A DNA stretch of 64,000 nucleotides, taken from the NCBI RefSeq assembly GCF_003966565.1, contig NZ_AP018718.1, forward strand, positions 1,674,001 to 1,738,000, in the 5' to 3' direction. Numbering within the stretch: position 1 is the stretch's first letter; every line of letters starts with the position of its first letter. This document shows positions 12,336 to 64,000 of this stretch, one piece after another. This stretch comes from Sulfuricystis multivorans (lineage in GTDB: Bacteria > Pseudomonadota > Gammaproteobacteria > Burkholderiales > Rhodocyclaceae). Below the pieces are notes generated by a model. It was not told the origin of the DNA and ran no database searches. It saw only the letters and a list, made by a program, of their open reading frames with translations. Made by a program: the position numbers and the translations under genes.

Positions 12336-13079
<744 letters not shown>

Positions 13080-17537: not shown

Positions 17538-18408
17538 TTTCCAGACCTTCGTAAGCCAGCATCACCTCGCAACCCGGATCCGGATGGCGGGCAAGCGCCT
17601 CGGCAAACACCCGTTCCAGCTCGTCATCGCTGCGGGTCGGTTCGTGGTGGGTGCATAGCAGCCGTCGGGCGCCGGTGCGGCGGGCCAATTCCAGACCGGT
17701 ATCGAAAGTGCCATGCCCCCAGCCGATTTTCTGCGGATATTCGGCCACCGTGTAGGCGGCATCGACGATCAGCAGATCGACCGGACCGATCGCCGCATCC
17801 AGGTCGGCCTGGCGCTGTTCGATCAGCGCCTGGTATTCGGCCCAAGGCGGGTCCTCCGGCGCGTAAATGTTGCGCCAGGGCTCGTGATCGCCAGTGAAGA
17901 ACAGCGCTTTGCCATTGCACTCGATGCGATAACCGAGATTGGTCACCGGATGGTTCATCAGTATCGGCGTCACGGTCGCATCGCCGACCCGAACCGGCTC
18001 CCCCACGGTCAGCGTCAGGTATTCGACCGCAGCCTTGAGCTCGGCTTCGCGAATCGGGAAATAACTGTATTGCAACTGCACGTTCATCACGTGCTCGACC
18101 CCTTGCTGGGTGATCAAATCGAAGGCACCGTGAATACGCACGACATTGCCGGGAATATGTAGCGGCACGAAGAACGGCAGCCCCTGGATGTGATCCCAAT
18201 GGGTATGGGTGATGAAGATGTTGGCTTCCACGGGAAGCCGGGCGAGCAGGCTCTGCGCCAGCGGAAAGATACCGGTACCGGCATCGAGGATGATCAGTCG
18301 GTCTTCATCGCTCCTGACCTCGATGCAAGTCGTGTTGCCGCCATAGCGCACCGTGCGCGGACCGGGCGACGGGATCGATCCCCGCACGCCCCACATCTTC
18401 ACTCTCAT
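17527..18408 (-). CDS. MBL-fold metallo-hydrolase
   Basis: A 293-residue metallo-beta-lactamase-fold protein. It starts MRVKMWGVRGSIPSPGP with a downstream GGNTTCIEV, a start shared by a bacterial family of predicted phosphodiesterase-like hydrolases. The metal motif THTHWDHIQG and later ligands in ILMNHPV, FFTGDHEP, LLIVDAAYT and THHEPT are present, so two metals can be bound. The start at 18408 overlaps the stop of the upstream HDOD gene by four bases, so the two are coupled. The substrate is unknown; a signalling nucleotide is a guess based only on the HDOD partner. Confidence 0.82.
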   Translation of the reverse strand: MRVKMWGVRGSIPSPGPRTVRYGGNTTCIEVRSDEDRLIILDAGTGIFPLAQSLLARLPVEANIFITHTHWDHIQGLPFFVPLHIPGNVVRIHGAFDLITQQGVEHVMNVQLQYSYFPIREAELKAAVEYLTLTVGEPVRVGDATVTPILMNHPVTNLGYRIECNGKALFFTGDHEPWRNIYAPEDPPWAEYQALIEQRQADLDAAIGPVDLLIVDAAYTVAEYPQKIGWGHGTFDTGLELARRTGARRLLCTHHEPTRSDDELERVFAEALARHPDPGCEVMLAYEGLEITL

Positions 18409-19280
18409 CCCCTCTCCCCAATGCCGATCTGCGCGAAGGTCTGCGCTTCCGCCAGATGTTTGTTCAAATCCCCGAAGCCCGCGACGACCGCGTCCAGATC
18501 GCTGCCGAAGCGCGTCGGCAATTCTGCCATCTCTTCCTCCCGCCAGGGATTGCCCGCTGCCCCGATGCTCTGTTTGCGGCAGATCGCATCGGCCATGCGC
18601 AGGCAATCGAGCATCGCCTGCGGCGCGACATCGGCCGCGTGATGGTCGCGAATGCATGCAACGAGCGCCTCACCGAACTGCCATTTCTTCGCCAGCAGGG
18701 CGCCGACGAAGGCGTGGTCGGCACCGATCACCTCCTGCTCGGCGAGATACAGCGGTTTCCCTTCCTGGGCTGCGATGCCCAGTGCGAGCGTGAATTCGGC
18801 CGCCATGGTGTGGGCGAATACCACCTTGCCGAAATCGTGCAGCAGCCCGGCCACATAGCAGTCACCGGGATCGGCTTCCGAGCGGGTATGTTTCTCGCAC
18901 AACAGGCGCGCCAATGAGGCGACGGCCAACGAATGGAGCAAGTATTGCTGGCTGTCGAAGAAGTCGGTATGAAAGCGCGGCAGCGCCCCGGCGGCGGCAC
19001 AGGCCAGCGCAAGATTTTTGATCGTGTTGAGGCCGAGATAGACGACCGCCTGGCCGACCGAGCCGATCTTGTTGGGCAAGGCATAGTAGGCGGAATTGAT
19101 GACGCGCAGGATGCGCAGCGTCATCACCGGGTCTTTCTCGATCACACCGACCAGCTGCTTGGGCAGGCAGTTGCTGTCCCGCGTCATCGCGAGGATGGTC
19201 TGCACGCTCTTCGGAAACGCCGGCATGCGGTCGACCGCCGCCGTCAGCCTGCGTTCGAGTTCCGGTGACAACTGCGGCAT
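18405..19280 (-). CDS. HDOD domain protein
   Basis: A 291-residue protein almost entirely made of an HDOD domain (about residues 18-215): ITRIL/ILRVINSAYYALPNKIGSV and GLLHDFGKVV are typical. HDOD proteins resemble HD phosphohydrolases but usually lack the full metal site, and act in signalling or cell-cycle control. Here LLHDFGK keeps the HD pair. It is coupled by a four-base overlap to the metallo-hydrolase downstream. Confidence 0.88.
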   Translation of the reverse strand: MPQLSPELERRLTAAVDRMPAFPKSVQTILAMTRDSNCLPKQLVGVIEKDPVMTLRILRVINSAYYALPNKIGSVGQAVVYLGLNTIKNLALACAAAGALPRFHTDFFDSQQYLLHSLAVASLARLLCEKHTRSEADPGDCYVAGLLHDFGKVVFAHTMAAEFTLALGIAAQEGKPLYLAEQEVIGADHAFVGALLAKKWQFGEALVACIRDHHAADVAPQAMLDCLRMADAICRKQSIGAAGNPWREEEMAELPTRFGSDLDAVVAGFGDLNKHLAEAQTFAQIGIGERG

Positions 19281-19340: not shown

Positions 19341-20219
19341 TCAAACGGCGGCAACGCGTTCGTAATACCGGGCGCGATAGAGCAAACGGCGCTTGTCGGC
19401 CGTTTCAGTGAAGCCGCTGCGATCGTGCAACACGTTGTTGCACACCAGCCCCATGCCAGGCTCGAGCCGGCCGCGCAGGGTCCACGGCGTCGGCGTGGCC
19501 AGGATGCGCTCGAGGGCGGCACGCGCCGCGCTGGCGGCGGCATCCCAGACGATACTCACCGTGCGGGCCGTGTAGCGCATGTGCAGCGTGCCATCTTCAT
19601 TGACGGAAAACACCGGGCCGGGTTGGGCGGCACGCGCCACCCCCTGGTCATCGGTGCGCGGCGGGATGGTCATCACCGCCGGCCGAGACAGGGCGCGGAT
19701 GTAGTCTGGATTCTCGTCGCGCAACAAGAGGTAGGCGATCTCGTGATCGAGCAGCTGATTCTCGCCGCCGCTGGCGGCGCTTTGCACGCAGTGCAGCAGC
19801 AAGCCGCGGATCGTGTGCTCGGGCCGGTTGTAATAGCCGTCGGTATGCCACTTGATCGGCCGGTCAGTGTAGGGAATGAAGTCCTTGCGTTCGCCACGGG
19901 CTTCGGCGCCGGTGACCGAAAGCGGCGAAATGCCGTCGCTGTCGGTCAGCCAGTGGCCATCGAGCGTGCGCATCCCAAGCTGGGCGCCGAGCCGCCGGGG
20001 AATCTCCTTGTCGGGATCCGCGCCGGTCTTGCTGATGTAGATCGCCATGTTGCAGCACCGGTTGAGAGCGACGAGACGCTCGCGCTCCACTGCTTTCAGC
20101 TGGCGCGGATCATCTAGGGCGACGATGATGTCCTCGATGTGCCGCGGCGCGGTATCGAGTTTGCGCGCGCGCCATTCGGCATAGGCGCGGGTGTCGGCAA
20201 GGTCGAAGGGGCCGGGCAT
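19341..20219 (-). CDS. TauD/TfdA family Fe(II)/2-oxoglutarate dioxygenase
   Basis: A 292-residue dioxygenase-fold protein. The iron-binding HTD motif is in KWHTDGYYN (His about residue 122), the distal His in CNNVLHDRSGF, and the 2-oxoglutarate arginine in KRRLLYRARYY. Family members hydroxylate or desulfonate small molecules such as taurine. It is the last gene of a four-gene minus-strand unit that diverges from dsrA, 11 bases after the unknown 202-residue protein. A role in organosulfur metabolism is plausible from context, but the substrate cannot be read from the sequence. Confidence 0.82.
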   Translation of the reverse strand: MPGPFDLADTRAYAEWRARKLDTAPRHIEDIIVALDDPRQLKAVERERLVALNRCCNMAIYISKTGADPDKEIPRRLGAQLGMRTLDGHWLTDSDGISPLSVTGAEARGERKDFIPYTDRPIKWHTDGYYNRPEHTIRGLLLHCVQSAASGGENQLLDHEIAYLLLRDENPDYIRALSRPAVMTIPPRTDDQGVARAAQPGPVFSVNEDGTLHMRYTARTVSIVWDAAASAARAALERILATPTPWTLRGRLEPGMGLVCNNVLHDRSGFTETADKRRLLYRARYYERVAAV

Positions 20220-20230
20220 CGCGTGTCCTT

Positions 20231-20839
20231 TCAGTCGATCGAGCCGCGCAGATCCTGCCGGCGCTGGCTTTTGGCCTGTTCCGGATTGAACAGGCCATCG
20301 AGGGTTTTCTCGAGCATCTTCAGCGACTCAGGAGCCTCGATGTCCATCGCCTGATCGATGACCCAGAGCTTGTCCTTCTCTGGCAAAACATCGCGCAAGC
20401 AGGCGGCGAAGAAGCGTTTGAAAGCGAAATCCGGCCCTTGCTCGGTGTAGTCGAATTCGGCGTAATCCACCACGCGGCGGTTGAAGAGATCGATGAAATG
20501 CCGCTGCGACTCGCCCGGCACCGCTTCGCCCAGCAGCATGATGTTGTTTTCCTCGACGAAGCGGGCGATGTTCTTCACCAGCGCGGACGTGAATTCGTTG
20601 CGTGCCGCGGCATCGAGCTTGCGATGAGCGACCCGGTCGGCTGCCACGGCCAGAAATGCCAGATACTCACAGACGAAATCGAAGTACGGGCGCCCCGGAT
20701 CGATGTCGTAATCGGCCTTGCGCATGCGCTTGATCGATTCGATCGCCAGCTTCCAGGCGAGCACCGCCACCACCGAGGCAAGTGTCGCCGGAGAGCGCTG
20801 TCCCGGCGTGTGGAACTTGGTCTTGAGACGGATGGCCAC
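20231..20839 (-). CDS. Conserved-looking helical protein of unknown function in the dsr-divergent operon
   Basis: A 202-residue soluble protein not recognised. It is mostly predicted helical, rich in acidic and basic residues with aromatic clusters (YFDFVCEYLAFLAVAADR, FKRFFAACLRDVLPEKDK), and has no membrane segment or signal peptide. It contains only two cysteines (about residues 57 and 147). The start lies three bases after the stop codon of the DsrC-like gene and its end is 11 bases before the dioxygenase, so it is firmly part of the operon. The tight linkage suggests it serves the DsrC paralogue; no function is claimed. Confidence 0.75.
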   Translation of the reverse strand: MAIRLKTKFHTPGQRSPATLASVVAVLAWKLAIESIKRMRKADYDIDPGRPYFDFVCEYLAFLAVAADRVAHRKLDAAARNEFTSALVKNIARFVEENNIMLLGEAVPGESQRHFIDLFNRRVVDYAEFDYTEQGPDFAFKRFFAACLRDVLPEKDKLWVIDQAMDIEAPESLKMLEKTLDGLFNPEQAKSQRRQDLRGSID

Positions 20840-20842
20840 GAA

Positions 20843-21181
20843 TTAATAACCGCCCTTGCCATATGGCTGCGGCAGACCGGCGATACGGCAGCCCTGCTTT
20901 GCCGCACCACCATCCGGGAACAGCTCGAACATCAGCTTGTTGTCGGCTTCCGGCATCACGCCTTCATCCTGCAATCCCTTGATCAGGTTGCGCAGATTGG
21001 GGGTATGACCGTCTTCCTGATACTTCTGGCGGAGATAATTGATCACCTTCCAGTGTTGTTCGGTCAGCTCGATGCCTTCCTTTTCGGCGAAGGCATGCAC
21101 CGCTTCCTCGCTGAAATCGGGTTCGAGCAGATAGCCGTAATCATCCACTTCTTTTTCGACGCCATTGATGACGATACCCAT
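20843..21181 (-). CDS. DsrC/TusE-family sulfur-carrier paralogue lacking the penultimate cysteine
   Basis: A 112-residue protein of the DsrC/TusE fold: an N-terminal GIVINGVEKEVDDYGYL and a C-terminal arm AAKQGCRIAGLPQPYG. True DsrC has two arm cysteines. Here the inner one is kept (Cys98, equal to Cys98 of the DsrC at 25994), but the penultimate catalytic one is replaced: the tail reads PYGKGGY with Lys at position 109. TusE proteins keep the opposite cysteine, and RspA-type proteins keep none, so this combination is unusual. It is in a four-gene operon with a Cas6-like protein. It may bind or regulate without forming the arm disulfide used in DsrC trisulfide chemistry. Confidence 0.9.
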   Translation of the reverse strand: MGIVINGVEKEVDDYGYLLEPDFSEEAVHAFAEKEGIELTEQHWKVINYLRQKYQEDGHTPNLRNLIKGLQDEGVMPEADNKLMFELFPDGGAAKQGCRIAGLPQPYGKGGY

Positions 21182-21226: not shown

Positions 21227-22114
21227 TCAGGCGGTTGCGGCGTCCGCTGGATTCGACTTGTGCGGCACGAAAACACCGCAGCCGCGTTTGCGTTCGATAC
21301 CGAGGCCATATCGCATCAGGCGCTGGGCGCCTTCGGCATCGAGACCATTCACCATCAGGCTGAAGCCGTGCAACATCCCCTCCGCCGTTCTGGCCGACTG
21401 ACGTTTGCCACAGACGAGAGAGCGCGGAACCACCTGCAGTGCCGCCAAGGCGCGCTGACAGGCGGTATAAAACCATTCCTCATCCGGTGCGTCGCTGCCG
21501 CCGAAGGTCACGAACTTCGAATACAGCACCGGCGCCTCGGGGAGCGCCTTTTCTGTTGCCGCGCCAACCTCGAGGATCGAACCGGCGAGATCGAGCTGGG
21601 CTCCGACCAACGCCCGCGCCTCAGCGAGTCGGCCGTGCGGCAGACGCAGCGTCAAATGCGAACGACGCGCGAGATACCACACCCCTTCCCCTGGACTCAA
21701 GCCGGAAAGGGGATGCACGCCGGCCAGCGCTTCGTTTTCCATCCACGGCAGGATCCGGCGGATCGCCTGCCATAGCGCATCTGCATGGTCGAACGGCACA
21801 CTGCCGCCTTTGAGGACGAATTGGAGATCGACTATTTCCGGGCAGACATCCGTCAGCGCCACCTCGGTCGCCGTCTCGACTAGAGACTGGCCAGCCCCCA
21901 GGACCTCGAGCTGCCGCTGCGACCACTGCCCCATCGTCGCGGCCCAGCGGCCGGCAGTGACCGGATCGATATCGAAGATCGTAAACCGTCGATGCTCGCG
22001 GATGCGCAGGCGCAGTACCGGCACGCCACCCGCCGCGAAGCGGATGTGCTGCAATTCGATTTCCTGATTACCGACCGGCACCCGGAATTTGTCTAGACTG
22101 GTAATCTCATCCAC
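21227..22114 (-). CDS. Cas6/Cmx6-like RNA-processing protein with N-terminal extension
   Basis: A 295-residue protein. Residues about 92-287 match the pattern of type I-MYXAN Cas6/Cmx6 proteins: VDLQFVLKGGSVPFDHADAL, ILPW...GVHPLSG, SHLTLRLP, LYSKFVTF, and the C-terminal glycine-rich loop YGLGIERKRGCGVFVPHKS. Residues 1-90 are an extra small domain (GNQEIELQHIRFAAGG, RRFTIFDID). Cas6 enzymes cut CRISPR transcripts at repeat hairpins. No CRISPR array or other cas gene is in the window; instead the gene leads an operon with a DsrC paralogue and is divergent from dsrA. Possible adoption for cutting other RNAs is inference. Catalytic residues in this subfamily cannot be named with certainty from sequence alone. 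Confidence 0.75.
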   Translation of the reverse strand: MDEITSLDKFRVPVGNQEIELQHIRFAAGGVPVLRLRIREHRRFTIFDIDPVTAGRWAATMGQWSQRQLEVLGAGQSLVETATEVALTDVCPEIVDLQFVLKGGSVPFDHADALWQAIRRILPWMENEALAGVHPLSGLSPGEGVWYLARRSHLTLRLPHGRLAEARALVGAQLDLAGSILEVGAATEKALPEAPVLYSKFVTFGGSDAPDEEWFYTACQRALAALQVVPRSLVCGKRQSARTAEGMLHGFSLMVNGLDAEGAQRLMRYGLGIERKRGCGVFVPHKSNPADAATA

Positions 22115-22396
22115 GATTGCATGGACCTTGCGGCAAAGGCTGAAACGACATTGGAGATGGGGTCGGACTATCGCACCGCAAGATGGCGAGAACCATCACC
22201 AAATGGGAGAAAGCCGAATACCCCATCAGGGTAGGTTCCCTTACCCCTCCGAATGCGGTTATTCTACCTGCCGGAGGTATGGTGCAACCGGACGGTCAGT
22301 CCTGATAATTCAATCCAACAAAGACTGGCGACGGCGGCACGAACAACAGCAGCGAACGACCAGTTCCCAACAGTCACCTACGAACGAGGAGATAAC
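22115..22396. promoter_or_regulatory. Divergent intergenic region: dsrA leader and Cas6-like gene promoter
   Basis: The 282 bases between the divergent starts must hold both promoters. No convincing sigma-70 pair was seen. A bulged hairpin (TACC-CC-TCCG at 22242-22251 with CGGAGGTA at 22272-22279) lies in the dsr leader, followed by CCGG...CCGG complementarity. A clear AGGAG ribosome site lies at 22387-22391, five bases before the dsrA ATG. Confidence 0.5.
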
Positions 22397-23698
22397 ATGG
22401 CCAAACAGCTTCACCCAACCCCTATGCTAGACCAACTCGAGTCCGGTCCGTGGCCCAGCTTCGTCACTGGCCTCAAGCGTCTCGCGAAGGACAAGGATTA
22501 TGTCGTCGACCTGCTCGGCCACCTCGAGCATTCTTACGAAACCCGCAAGGGTTACTGGAAGGGGGGCACCGTGGGCGTGTTCGGTTACGGCGGCGGCGTG
22601 ATCCCCCGCTTCACCGAAATCAAGGACGAAAAGACCGGCCAGCCGGTCTTCAAGGATGCTGCGGAATTCCACACCCTGCGCATCATGCCCCCGCCCGGCA
22701 TGCACTATGACACCGCCACCCTGCGCAAATTCTGCGACATCTGGGAAAAGTATGGTTCCGGCCTGATCGCGCTGCACGGCCAGTCCGGCGACATCATGTT
22801 CCAGGGCTGCACCACCGAGAACGTCCAGCCGGCCTGGGACGAAATCAACGAGATGGGCTTCGATATGGGCGGCGCCGGCCCGGCCGTGCGCACCGCGATG
22901 TCCTGCGTCGGTGCCGCGCGCTGCGAGCAGTCCTGCTACGACGAAGCGCTGGCTCACCAGAAGATCATCAACAACTTCCTCGACGACATCCATCGTCCGG
23001 CACTGCCTTACAAGTTCAAGTTCAAGTTCTCCGGCTGCGGCAACGACTGCATGAACGCCATCCAGCGTGCCGACATGGCCGTGATCGGTACTTGGCGTGA
23101 CAACATGAAGACCGACGACGAGCTCGGCAAGAAGTGGTTCGCCAAGCACGGCATGAACGAGCTGATCAACGACGTCGTCAATATGTGCCCGACGCGCGCC
23201 CTGCAAGTCAAGGACACCAAGGATGTGCGCAAGGACGCACACATCTCCGCCGTCGCGATCAACGACACCCAGTCGCTCGAAATCGACAACAAGGACTGCG
23301 TGCGCTGCATGCACTGCATCAACGTGATGACCGGCGCGCTCGGCCCGGGCAAGGACAAAGGCGCGACGATCCTGGTCGGCGGCCACGGCCACTTGAAGAT
23401 CGGCGCGACGCTCGGCACCGTCGTCGTCCCCTTCATGGACCTCAAGACCGAAGAAGACTACGACAAGCTGGTCGAGCTGGCGCAGAACATCGTCGACTTC
23501 TTCGCCGAGAACGCTCTCGAGCATGAGCGCACCGGTGAGATGATCGAACGTATTGGTCTAGTCAACTTCCTCGAAGGCATCGGCCTCGATCCCGACGCGA
23601 ACATGGTCAACTGCCCGCGTTCCAACCCGTATGTGCGCACCGACGGTTGGGACGAAGAAGTCGCGCGGATCAACGCCAAGAAGAAGGCCGCGGCCTGA
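22397..23698 (+). CDS. dsrA: Reverse-type dissimilatory sulfite reductase, alpha subunit
   Basis: A 433-residue cytoplasmic subunit of the siroheme and iron-sulfur enzyme that oxidises sulfane sulfur, delivered by DsrC, to sulfite. The siroheme/4Fe-4S cysteines are in CVGAARCEQSC and FSGCGNDC; a ferredoxin insert has DCVRCMHC and MCPTRAL. The frame is open 48 codons further upstream, but the family start MAKQLHPTPMLDQLESGPWPS and the AGGAG site fix 22397. First gene of dsrABEFHCMKLJOPN. The presence of dsrEFH and dsrL marks the oxidative (reverse) type. Confidence 0.98.
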   Translation: MAKQLHPTPMLDQLESGPWPSFVTGLKRLAKDKDYVVDLLGHLEHSYETRKGYWKGGTVGVFGYGGGVIPRFTEIKDEKTGQPVFKDAAEFHTLRIMPPPGMHYDTATLRKFCDIWEKYGSGLIALHGQSGDIMFQGCTTENVQPAWDEINEMGFDMGGAGPAVRTAMSCVGAARCEQSCYDEALAHQKIINNFLDDIHRPALPYKFKFKFSGCGNDCMNAIQRADMAVIGTWRDNMKTDDELGKKWFAKHGMNELINDVVNMCPTRALQVKDTKDVRKDAHISAVAINDTQSLEIDNKDCVRCMHCINVMTGALGPGKDKGATILVGGHGHLKIGATLGTVVVPFMDLKTEEDYDKLVELAQNIVDFFAENALEHERTGEMIERIGLVNFLEGIGLDPDANMVNCPRSNPYVRTDGWDEEVARINAKKKAAA

Positions 23699-25993: not shown

Positions 25994-26326
25994 ATGGCAT
26001 TCGAACTCAACGGCAAGACCTACGAAACCGACGAAGAAGGCTACCTGGTCAACCTGTCGGACTGGAATGAAGACGTCGCCAAGTACCTGGCCGAGCAAGA
26101 AGGCGTCAACCTGACCGACGCGCACTGGGAAGTCATCAACTTCCTGCGCGACTACTACAACGAGTTCCAGATCGCTCCAGCCGTGCGCGTGCTGACCAAG
26201 GCGATCGGCAAGAAGCTCGGCCCGGATAAAGGCAACAGCCAGTATCTCTATGAGCTGTTCCCCTATGGCCCCGCCAAGCAGGCCTGCAAGATCGCCGGCC
26301 TGCCGAAGCCGACCGGCTGCGTCTGA
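25994..26326 (+). CDS. dsrC: Sulfur carrier protein DsrC
   Basis: A 110-residue bona fide DsrC. The flexible C-terminal arm keeps both redox cysteines: Cys98 (AKQACKIAGLP) and the penultimate Cys109 (PTGCV), spaced 11 residues apart as in Allochromatium. DsrC takes sulfur from DsrEFH and presents it to DsrAB; the trisulfide product links to the DsrMKJOP membrane complex. It is followed by a 149-base gap with a strong hairpin, which could protect a dsrC-ending transcript and explain the high DsrC levels usual in sulfur oxidisers. A one-cysteine paralogue lies at 20843. Confidence 0.98.
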   Translation: MAFELNGKTYETDEEGYLVNLSDWNEDVAKYLAEQEGVNLTDAHWEVINFLRDYYNEFQIAPAVRVLTKAIGKKLGPDKGNSQYLYELFPYGPAKQACKIAGLPKPTGCV

Positions 26327-26343: not shown

Positions 26344-26372
26344 GGTGCACGGCACACTGGTGCCGTGCCACC
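26344..26372 (+). promoter_or_regulatory. Strong hairpin between dsrC and dsrM
   Basis: GGTGCACGGCAC and GTGCCGTGCCACC pair over twelve bases with one bulged base and the loop ACTG; no T-run follows. The right arm belongs to a copy of the dispersed repeat (26360-26385), so the repeat helps to build this hairpin. Confidence 0.75.
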
Positions 26373-62828: not shown

Positions 62829-63641
62829 ATGAACCTGAGAGACATCACCATGGCCATTCCTGACGTCCAATCGAGCCACGATGCCCGCCAGCTACCAATC
62901 GACAAGGTCGGCATCAAATCCATCCGCCATCCGGTGAAGGTGCTGGACAAGAGCGGCGGCGTGCAGCACACGATCGCCACCTTCAACATGTACGTCGGCC
63001 TGCCGCACAACTTCAAGGGCACGCACATGTCTCGCTTCGTCGAGATTCTCAACGCCCACGAGCGCGAGATCTCGGTCGAGAATTATGAGCCGATGCTGCG
63101 CGAGATGGTGAAGAAGCTGGAAGCCAAGACCGGCCACCTGGAGATGAGCTTCCCCTACTTCATCAACAAGGAGGCGCCGGTCTCGAAGGTGAAGAGCCTG
63201 CTCGATTACGACGTCACCTTCATCGGCGAGATCGTCGAGAACGACGGCTACCGGCAGACCACGCGCGTCGTCGTGCCTGCCACCAGCCTGTGCCCCTGCT
63301 CGAAGAAGATTTCCGAGCGCGGCGCCCACAACCAGCGCTCGCACATCACGATCACCGCCACCACCAACAGCTTCGTCTGGATCGAAGAACTCGTGCAGAT
63401 GGCCGAAAGCCAAGCCTCCTGCGAGCTCTTTGGTTTATTGAAGCGTCCCGACGAAAAGCATGTCACCGAGCGTGCTTACGACAATCCGAAGTTCGTCGAG
63501 GACATCGTACGCGATGTCGCCGGCCTGCTCAATGCCGATCCGCGCATCGACGCCTACATCGTGGAATCGGAAAATTTCGAGTCGATCCACAACCATTCGG
63601 CCTACGCGCTCATCGAGCGCGACAAAACCCGCCGCGAGTAG
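62829..63641 (+). CDS. folE2: GTP cyclohydrolase FolE2
   Basis: A 270-residue type IB GTP cyclohydrolase I, opening GTP to dihydroneopterin triphosphate for folate and queuosine precursors. The conserved [19 protein letters not shown] block holds the catalytic Cys, and the C-terminal [13 protein letters not shown] motif is complete. It is 87 bases after dxs with a GGAGA ribosome site. Its last 23 codons are part of the 145-base unit that is repeated downstream. Confidence 0.96.
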
Positions 63642-64000
63642 CGCTTCGGAACTCGAAATTTCGGCGTAGGCTAACCTCGCCCAAGCGAGGTTAAGCGCGC
63701 AGCGCGGCCGAAGCCAAAATTTCGAGTCGATCCACAACCATTCGGCCTACGCGCTCATCGAGCGCGACAAAACCCGCCGCGAGTAGCGCTTCGGAACTCG
63801 AAATTTCGGCGTAGGCTAACCTCGCCCAAGCGAGGTTAAGCGCGCAGCGCGGCCGAAGCCAAAATTTCGAGTCGATCCACAACCATTCGGCCTACGCGCT
63901 CATCGAGCGCGACAAAACCCGCCCGAGTAGCGCTTCGGAACTCGAAATTTCGGCGTAGGCTAACCTCGCTCAAGCGAGGTTAAGCGCGCAGCGCGGCCGA
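63571..64000 (+). repeat. 145-bp tandem repeat including the folE2 tail
   Basis: Copies begin at 63571, 63716 and 63861, exactly 145 bases apart; the third runs to the end of the window and has a one-base deletion (near 63923) and a base change in its hairpin loop. Each holds the last 23 codons of folE2, its stop, and about 74 bases with an inverted repeat: ACTCGAAATTT / AAATTTCGAGT outside and TAACCTCGC-CCAA-GCGAGGTTA inside. Copies two and three are untranslated tail fragments. Confidence 0.92.
63672..63693 (+). terminator. Hairpin downstream of folE2 (repeated in each tandem copy)
   Basis: TAACCTCGC, loop CCAA, GCGAGGTTA: a nine-pair stem 30 bases past the folE2 stop, repeated at 63817 and 63962. 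No T-run follows, so it may be a 3' protecting structure more than a strict terminator. Confidence 0.5.

Follow-up and report, generated by a model that had tools for sequence, protein, structure and literature searches.

A Cas6/Cmx6-like protein encoded divergently from dsrA accompanies sulfur-oxidation genes in Gammaproteobacteria with or without CRISPR genes in the cell

INTRODUCTION

Cas6 is usually regarded as part of a CRISPR system, and the NCBI model TIGR02807 carries the name type I-MYXAN CRISPR-associated Cas6/Cmx6. The closest described relatives of the protein studied here are the Cas6 proteins of type I-MYXAN and type I-B CAST systems (PDB entries 8fcj and 8fcu), which it resembles in full-length profile match, in fold and in the glycine-rich loop. 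Unlike them, it belongs to a lineage that is tied to the dsr genes, it has no cas neighbours, its LH histidine is replaced and its net charge is about zero or negative. Two further differences are a SGNGWxRP stretch in the gamma-group members and a fusion to DUF6967 in the member described here. A precedent for a Cas6 protein acting on RNA other than a CRISPR repeat is Sulfolobus Cas6-3, which, according to the available portion of PMC4041471, cuts the non-CRISPR RNA ncRNA60 in vitro. That protein also cuts CRISPR repeats and is CSM-linked, whereas members of the dsr lineage are found in cells that have no cas1 match.

The protein is encoded in a stretch of 64,000 nt from Sulfuricystis multivorans that was analysed as a whole and is referred to as the window. 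We found no mention of a dsr-linked Cas6 protein in the open-licence literature on Cas6/Cmx6, dsr, DsrC or sulfur oxidation, nor in the accessible parts of PMC5728499, PMC10952691, PMC7540712, PMC5944118 and PMC8889020, and a description elsewhere is possible. The lineage is present in about one-third of the class genomes surveyed (118/369) as a companion of dissimilatory sulfur oxidation, even in genomes of ~1 Mb. It offers a handle on the post-transcriptional regulation of dsr, a question that is open in the literature searched. It also illustrates CRISPR-type machinery that is stably established in metabolism, and it is a warning for surveys that take cas6 genes as signs of CRISPR. If the protein does regulate dsr, the lineage would be a branch of Cas6 with an existence entirely apart from CRISPR.

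RESULTS AND DISCUSSION

The window protein has the profile and predicted fold of Cas6

The gene at positions 21227–22114 of the window (minus strand, GTG start at 22114) encodes 295 amino acids. A preliminary description of this DNA had recognized the pattern of Cas6/Cmx6 proteins, including a C-terminal glycine-rich loop, at residues ~92–287, and profile searches bear this out. The Pfam Cas6 profile PF09559 is covered from end to end (positions 1–191 of 191) by residues 95–287 (21254–21832, minus strand; E 3.7e-52; 177.5 bits against a cut-off of 26.7), and TIGR02807 (cas6_cmx6) matches residues 93–284 with 140.6 bits, above its cut-off of 98.85. Judged by these scores, both matches are far beyond chance. 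In the Cas6 domain, the first helix begins with D109–H110 and the glycine-rich loop spans residues 270–282. Six Cas6 models of PADLOC also match the protein. The Cas6 portion of the domain assignment thus stood, but an N-terminal DUF6967 domain (residues 2–66; 21917–22111, minus strand; PF22295, E 1.8e-27) had been overlooked.

The structural comparisons agree with the profiles. In a sequence search of the PDB at E 0.001, the sole match was the type I-B CAST Cas6 (8fcj_B and five further entries, E 8.6e-15). An AlphaFold2 model of the window protein, made from 69 window and locus sequences, reached a mean pLDDT of 92.7 and a pTM of 0.78, and Foldseek placed 8fcj_B and 8fcu_B at the top of its ranking (E 1.2e-15, TM 0.83 by target length, rmsd 1.8 and 2.2). 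Foldseek gave 33 matches in the PDB at E ≤ 0.001, and each is either a Cas6/Cse3 chain or a Cascade structure containing one. A second model, for the gamma-type relative at locus L081 (21 sequences, pLDDT 87.7), again returned 8fcj_B and 8fcu_B first. The predicted structure of the window protein has the two ferredoxin-like RAMP domains of the Cas6 fold; lack of any such similarity is what the preliminary description had named as evidence against its assignment, and the TIGR02807 search and structure prediction that it had proposed both match Cas6. By profile and by predicted fold, the window protein is a genuine Cas6 homologue.

A scan of genome contigs for close relatives of the window protein gave a single locus, L002, from a Rhodocyclaceae MAG that is the nearest named relative and whose DsrA is 99% identical. 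The DUF6967–Cas6 fusion was seen only in the genome of the window (G000), in G387 and in L002; in most relatives of the family the two are separate neighbouring genes, with DUF6967 just before Cas6. A search of viral contigs with the gamma-group profile gave 26 pattern matches, none of them a relative. DUF6967 is also encoded away from dsr at three loci (L132, L133 and L134, in G106, G223 and G207), where its neighbours are a chorismatase-like gene; ribosomal protein L28 and an EAL-HDOD protein; and a desaturase–transposase ORF.

The Cas6 gene leads a module divergent from dsrA

The gene had been described as divergent from dsrA and as sharing an operon with a DsrC paralogue, and the gene order is in accord with both statements. 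A divergent intergenic region (22115–22396) lies between the start of the Cas6 gene at 22114 on the minus strand and that of dsrA (22397–23698, plus strand; TIGR02064, 517 bits), whose ATG at 22397 stands behind GAGGAG. dsrA is the first gene of the sulfur-oxidation operon and is followed by dsrB, E, F, H, C, M, K and L; the true dsrC (25994–26326, plus strand; PF04358, E 2.7e-50) encodes a protein ending in PTGCV. On the other side, the stop codon of the Cas6 gene is 45 bp before the gene for the DsrC-family paralogue, DsrC2 (20843–21181, minus strand; PF04358, E 5.5e-31), which ends in KGGY and has no C-terminal cysteine. The same strand continues with ORF202 (20231–20839), which has no Pfam or NCBIfam match and is kept in the module of the family, a TauD-like dioxygenase that is also a module member (19341–20219; PF02668, E 2.2e-16) and an HDOD-domain protein (18405–19280) that comes after the module in several close relatives too. 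An Rfam search of positions 13000–34000 gave no match at E 0.1.

Two layouts emerge when the window is compared with 58 fetched loci. In the gamma type, dsrA is divergent from TauD, CL5 (~62 aa), an optional ORF235, Cas6, DsrC2 and often CL8; in the family type, the divergent genes are DUF6967, Cas6, often a tandem TusA protein, DsrC2, ORF202 and TauD. No Pfam match at 0.01 was obtained for CL5, ORF235, CL8 or ORF202. The DsrC2 copies compared end in KGGY (KAGY in L118) and the true DsrC copies compared end in GCV or GCI, such that the C-terminal catalytic cysteine of DsrC sulfur carriers is absent from DsrC2. By its PF04358 match, DsrC2 is a member of the DsrC/TusE family, and members of this family without a C-terminal cysteine are reportedly what Venceslau and colleagues called RspA in 2014. 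We found no mention in the open-licence literature of the constant KGGY-type end of DsrC2 or of its Cas6 neighbour. The tandem TusA-like protein, an additional sulfur-carrier-like gene of the family-type module, was seen by eye behind Cas6 in six loci (L119, L120, L124, L126, L127 and L128); a Pfam run on the L124 copy matched PF01206 twice.

Cas6 and dsrA occur together across the class

A survey of dsr-containing genomes for the same gene next to dsrA had been proposed, and its outcome is strongly positive. Among 121 genomes of the family, 31 carry a true dsrA (29 scoring above the cut-off and two, G369 and G439, with dsrA split between contigs). DUF6967 is present in 30 of these 31 and Cas6 in 28, against none of the other 90 for either (Fisher p 2e-24 for Cas6). 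The three dsrA genomes of the family without Cas6 are G448, G372 and G444. The first two keep DUF6967 along with dsrA, and in G448, which is of the same genus as the window, DUF6967 is followed directly by DsrC2; G444 has dsr and no module within 6.6 kb beside dsrA. In a further family member, G446, the Cas6 gene is in two frames.

The association is equally evident among 369 genomes of Gammaproteobacteria in the GTDB sense, where a threshold of E ≤ 1e-60 was applied for dsrA. PF09559 was found in 118 genomes, dsrA in 117, both in 110 and neither in 244 (Fisher p 1.5e-74); DUF6967 was found in seven. The two genes share a contig in 82 of the 110 genomes and are on different contigs in 28. Eighty of the 82 same-contig pairs are within 4.6 kb of one another, with a median gap of 1730 and a maximum of 4511, and every one of these 80 is divergent; the two more distant pairs are those of G109 and G325. 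Eight genomes have Cas6 only. G219 and G318 do carry a piece of dsrA beside Cas6, and in the remaining six the module reaches or comes close to a contig end (2.3 kb away in G299, less elsewhere). In five of the seven genomes with dsrA only, the contig breaks off close to dsrA or, for G123, just past TauD and CL5, the first genes of the module. The other two, G211 and G355, show no module in the readable ~10.8 and 1.8 kb on the module side and are exceptions, real or apparent, to the link. At the level of loci, dsr genes stand beside Cas6 in 53 of the 54 Cas6-bearing loci among L080–L137.

Beyond the class the picture changes. In a draw of 229 genomes from the phylum, 47 have dsrA, and of the 46 besides the window's own genome only one has PF09559: G689, which is of the same order and has a complete module. 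The dsr region was inspected in 19 of the 45 dsrA genomes of this draw without PF09559. Two, both outside the class (L163 in G662 and L164 in G576), have a full oxidation-type dsr cluster with divergent TauD, CL5 and DUF6967 and no Cas6, and the TauD–CL5–DUF6967 set is therefore wider than Cas6. L176 has dsrEFH and no module, and the other 16 regions show profile matches to dsrA, dsrB and a DsrL-like protein and none to dsrEFH, C, M or K in the stretch examined. Within this phylum sample, the Cas6 of the dsr module is confined to the class.

The lineage is independent of CRISPR loci

The preliminary description had noted the absence of CRISPR near the gene. This holds for the window: Tandem Repeats Finder detected no CRISPR-like array in it, although the same program detects both arrays found elsewhere in the genome, and no cas gene was recognized beside the window gene. 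It does not extend to the genome, which has two cas1 matches, ~1.5 and 0.6 Mb away and both outside the window. We took 20 kb around each (G000:C1:170001-190000, L078, and 1051001-1071000, L079). One is a type III-like locus with a long array of 36-nt repeats, Cas1, RAMP proteins and its own Cas6 (L078:13134-14072), which belongs to a different Pfam family, PF10040, from the dsr-linked protein of the same cell; the other has Cas9 and an array. In light of this PF10040 Cas6 and of the Cas9 type of the second locus, neither should need the dsr-linked protein, and PF09559 matches only once in the genome, at the window gene itself.

For a broader view, cas1 was used as a proxy for CRISPR in 80 genomes: all 30 DUF6967 carriers of the family draw, and 50 selected, with a preference for few contigs, from the 117 remaining Cas6 genomes of the class. 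A cas1 match was found in 41 of the 80. The Cas6 gene is carried by 78, half of which (39) gave no cas1 match, bearing in mind that a system without cas1 would be missed. These 39 include 10 single-contig genomes (G387, G441, G019, G034, G044, G080, G082, G109, G132 and G311) and four of 1.0–1.1 Mb (G039, G142, G255 and G287). Occurrence of the gene only with CRISPR loci, which the preliminary description had set against its own proposal, is not what the genomes show. Of its suggestion of a Cas6-type protein adopted for another RNA, perhaps in the control of sulfur-oxidation genes, the tie to sulfur oxidation rather than to CRISPR is upheld by the co-occurrence with dsrA together with the carriers without cas1. 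The Cas6-like protein is a regular companion of sulfur-oxidation genes, with or without CRISPR genes in the cell, and we regard its identity as a CRISPR-independent Cas6 variant and its linkage to reverse Dsr sulfur oxidation as nearly certain.

As comparators we used eight PF09559 proteins on cyanobacterial plasmids, seven of which are beside cas genes. The eighth, L070 (Gloeobacter morelensis plasmid pGMOR1, 3977-4768), is annotated as CRISPR-associated Cas6/Cmx6 and has no cas genes in the stretch shown; around it are encoded a PAPS-reductase-family protein, a cupin and hypothetical proteins. These eight were aligned with 60 non-CRISPR rows (30 gamma, 27 family and three other DUF6967-linked). 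The gamma rows are the best 30 class matches rather than a random draw, and one of them, L065, comes from a genome in which no dsrA was found (G186). Two rows were dropped (L003, a duplicate of L001, and L036, with the gene in two frames), and loci without Cas6 (L007–L010, L017 and L033) could not enter, which leaves out the Cas6 of G452, located on a different contig. In the unrooted tree of all 68 rows, a branch with support 100/99 separates the eight comparators from the other 60.

This separation bears on whether the protein could be a CRISPR Cas6 that acts in trans on arrays elsewhere in the genome. In favor of this are the two CRISPR loci with arrays and the name of the matching NCBI model, type I-MYXAN Cas6/Cmx6. 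Against it stand the tree, the PF10040 Cas6 and Cas9 of the two loci and, to the extent that cas1 is a fair proxy for CRISPR, the carriers that lack a cas1 match. We consider this explanation scarcely credible and reject it.

Cas6 evolves quickly under purifying selection

Pairwise distances of Cas6 follow those of DsrA, with a correlation of 0.70 over 54 loci that is the highest for the seven partners tested (DsrC2 0.68, TauD 0.47, DsrE 0.24). Between G000 and G387, Cas6 has the highest dN of nine genes compared (0.102) and a dN/dS of 0.10; the ratios for DUF6967, HDOD, DsrA and DsrC2 are 0.29, 0.17, 0.016 and 0.008. The low ratio combined with the highest dN indicates that Cas6 is under purifying selection yet changes fast. 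A decaying leftover of a lost CRISPR system might look like the interrupted gene of G446, but this idea is contradicted by the dN/dS, by the presence of the gene in genomes of 1.0–1.1 Mb and by its fixed place across the class. It is also rejected, with next to no weight left to it.

Sequence features argue both for and against a role on RNA

The consensus of the Cas6 glycine-rich loop is G-phi-G-x5-G-phi-G with a positive residue, as given in the accessible portion of PMC3727216. With C counted as hydrophobic, the consensus is found in 59 of the 60 non-CRISPR rows, 57 of which have K or R inside; the loop of the window protein is GLGIERKRGCG. In the comparators it is present in seven of eight strictly and in all eight if M is allowed for one G. 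The D-H motif at the first helix has its histidine in 30/30 gamma rows, 3/3 other DUF6967-linked rows and 7/7 comparators with residues there, so that the plasmid comparators resemble the window protein (H110) at this position and 8fcj, which aligns with D-N, differs. The 27 family rows have 11 H and 16 Y.

A different result is obtained for the LH histidine, a putative counterpart of the known catalytic histidine of Pyrococcus Cas6. It is present in six of the eight comparators, and in 8fcj, versus none of the 60 non-CRISPR rows; conversely, a W two positions before the LH site is found in 58 of the 60 and in none of the comparators. The D-H histidine was also considered as the catalytic one, a proposal weakened by the comparison of the LH position. 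According to the parts of PMC3727216 available, no catalytic residue is conserved across all Cas6 subfamilies, and two active Sulfolobus Cas6 proteins have neither a general acid nor a base.

The result that weighs most heavily against a plain RNA-binding reading is the net charge of the Cas6 region (K+R-D-E). Its median is -1 in the family (-6 to 3; n=27) and -3 in the gamma group (-9 to 3; n=30), compared with +6.5 in the comparators (5 to 13; n=8). As calculated from sequence, this charge would argue against a strong general affinity for RNA, and together with the absent LH histidine it would count against a simple Cas6-type nuclease.

The same two features are what would be expected if the Cas6 fold had been turned into a protein–protein scaffold of the Dsr machinery, for example one holding DsrC2 or DsrAB, with no work on RNA. 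The module partners would suit such a function, being sulfur-carrier proteins (DsrC2, and the tandem TusA in several relatives) and no RNA enzymes, and the positions conserved specifically in the gamma group, HxIH...SGNGWxRP, could form a new interface. A scaffold does not readily account for a glycine-rich loop that is almost unchanged or for three arginines and two lysines kept in every one of the 21 rows of alignment A2. We view the scaffold as a doubtful alternative and, on balance, find it somewhat more likely than not that the Cas6-like protein works on RNA.

Some copies are found away from dsr

In 20 of the 28 split-contig genomes, where Cas6 and dsrA are on different contigs, the Cas6 surroundings were inspected. 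CL5, Cas6 and DsrC2 stay together in several of these loci (e.g. L185, L188, L190, L191, L199 and L200), and in four (L186, L189, L195 and L198) Cas6 is without module genes. In G109, G325 and G226 (L135, L157 and L183), Cas6 is divergent from rnc, encoding RNase III, and era. All three belong to family f111 and the arrangement probably reflects one event. In L198 (7437-8960), the Cas6-like gene is directly behind a gene for a SpoU-family RNA 2'-O-methyltransferase. No such RNA-gene neighbours were seen by eye for the unlinked copies L186, L189 and L195.

The neighbours in f111 and L198 raise the question of whether the protein is a Cas6, active or binding only, for some other RNA, such as a small RNA or a tRNA or rRNA precursor, with the linkage to dsr reflecting the demand that sulfur oxidation places on that RNA. 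A general RNA role would not predict that 110 of 118 carriers have dsrA, however, and the three rnc cases amount to a single family, with L186, L189 and L195 lacking neighbours of this kind. We therefore think this explanation decidedly unlikely.

A hairpin behind dsrC is a candidate site

A strong hairpin at 26344–26372 (plus strand), 17 nt behind the stop codon of dsrC, is a candidate RNA target. When intergenic gaps (up to 150 nt) were folded and compared with 20 mononucleotide shuffles per sequence, which preserve base composition only, the dsrC–dsrM gap was the most structured of those compared, with a mean z of -2.92 over 52 loci and -1.14 for the next gap. A hairpin of at least 7 pairs is present near the dsrC stop in 43 of the 52 loci, a number that may be an undercount because the strict hairpin test misses some strongly folded gaps (L085). 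Only nine of the 43 have a U-rich tail, and most of these hairpins are thus unlike plain intrinsic terminators.

A rule by which the hairpin depends on Cas6 is unsupported by the exceptions. L164 (G576) has hairpins without Cas6, L117 (G142) has Cas6 with a 30-nt gap and no hairpin and L163 has neither. Two loci with dsr and no Cas6, L138 and L123, failed the strict hairpin test and have strongly folded gaps nevertheless, and the fold with which L139 passed it is weak (-5.5 kcal/mol). As the hairpin is not strictly tied to Cas6, we infer the connection between the two.

Four features would be consistent with a role on RNA: the glycine-rich loop (59/60), the D-H motif of the gamma group (30/30), the structured dsrC–dsrM gap and the rnc–era neighbours in f111. 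In our preferred reading, the Cas6-like protein would be an RNA-binding factor, perhaps an endoribonuclease, that recognizes a hairpin on a dsr-related transcript and modulates the processing or stability of that RNA. DsrC2, with no C-terminal cysteine to carry sulfur, would be the likely partner or sensor. The hairpin behind dsrC would be the foremost candidate for this site, given that transcripts of dsrEFH and dsrC are reported to exceed that of dsrA in Allochromatium vinosum; in this organism on sulfide the excess is significant, according to the available part of PMC3397948, which cites Grimm et al. 2010. The dsrC hairpin could help explain this excess. In the accessible part of PMC5944118, the DsrC protein of A. 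vinosum is further stated to bind DNA upstream of the dsr cluster.

Our leading reading, as yet unproven, is that the protein controls dsr post-transcriptionally. We assign a probability of roughly 0.5 to the view that the protein represents a CRISPR-independent Cas6/Cmx6 lineage, fixed as an accessory of reverse Dsr, that acts as an RNA-binding factor on a dsr-related transcript; for the dsr transcript as the target, the case is evenly balanced. A more detailed version, in which a domesticated Cas6 and a state-sensing DsrC2 cut or protect the dsr message at the dsrC hairpin and thereby set a high ratio of DsrEFH/DsrC to the rest, is speculative and, taken in all its parts, unlikely.

A minor feature of the window is found far from the dsr region. 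Positions 63571–64000 contain three near-identical 145-bp tandem units (99% matches), which run up to the window end.
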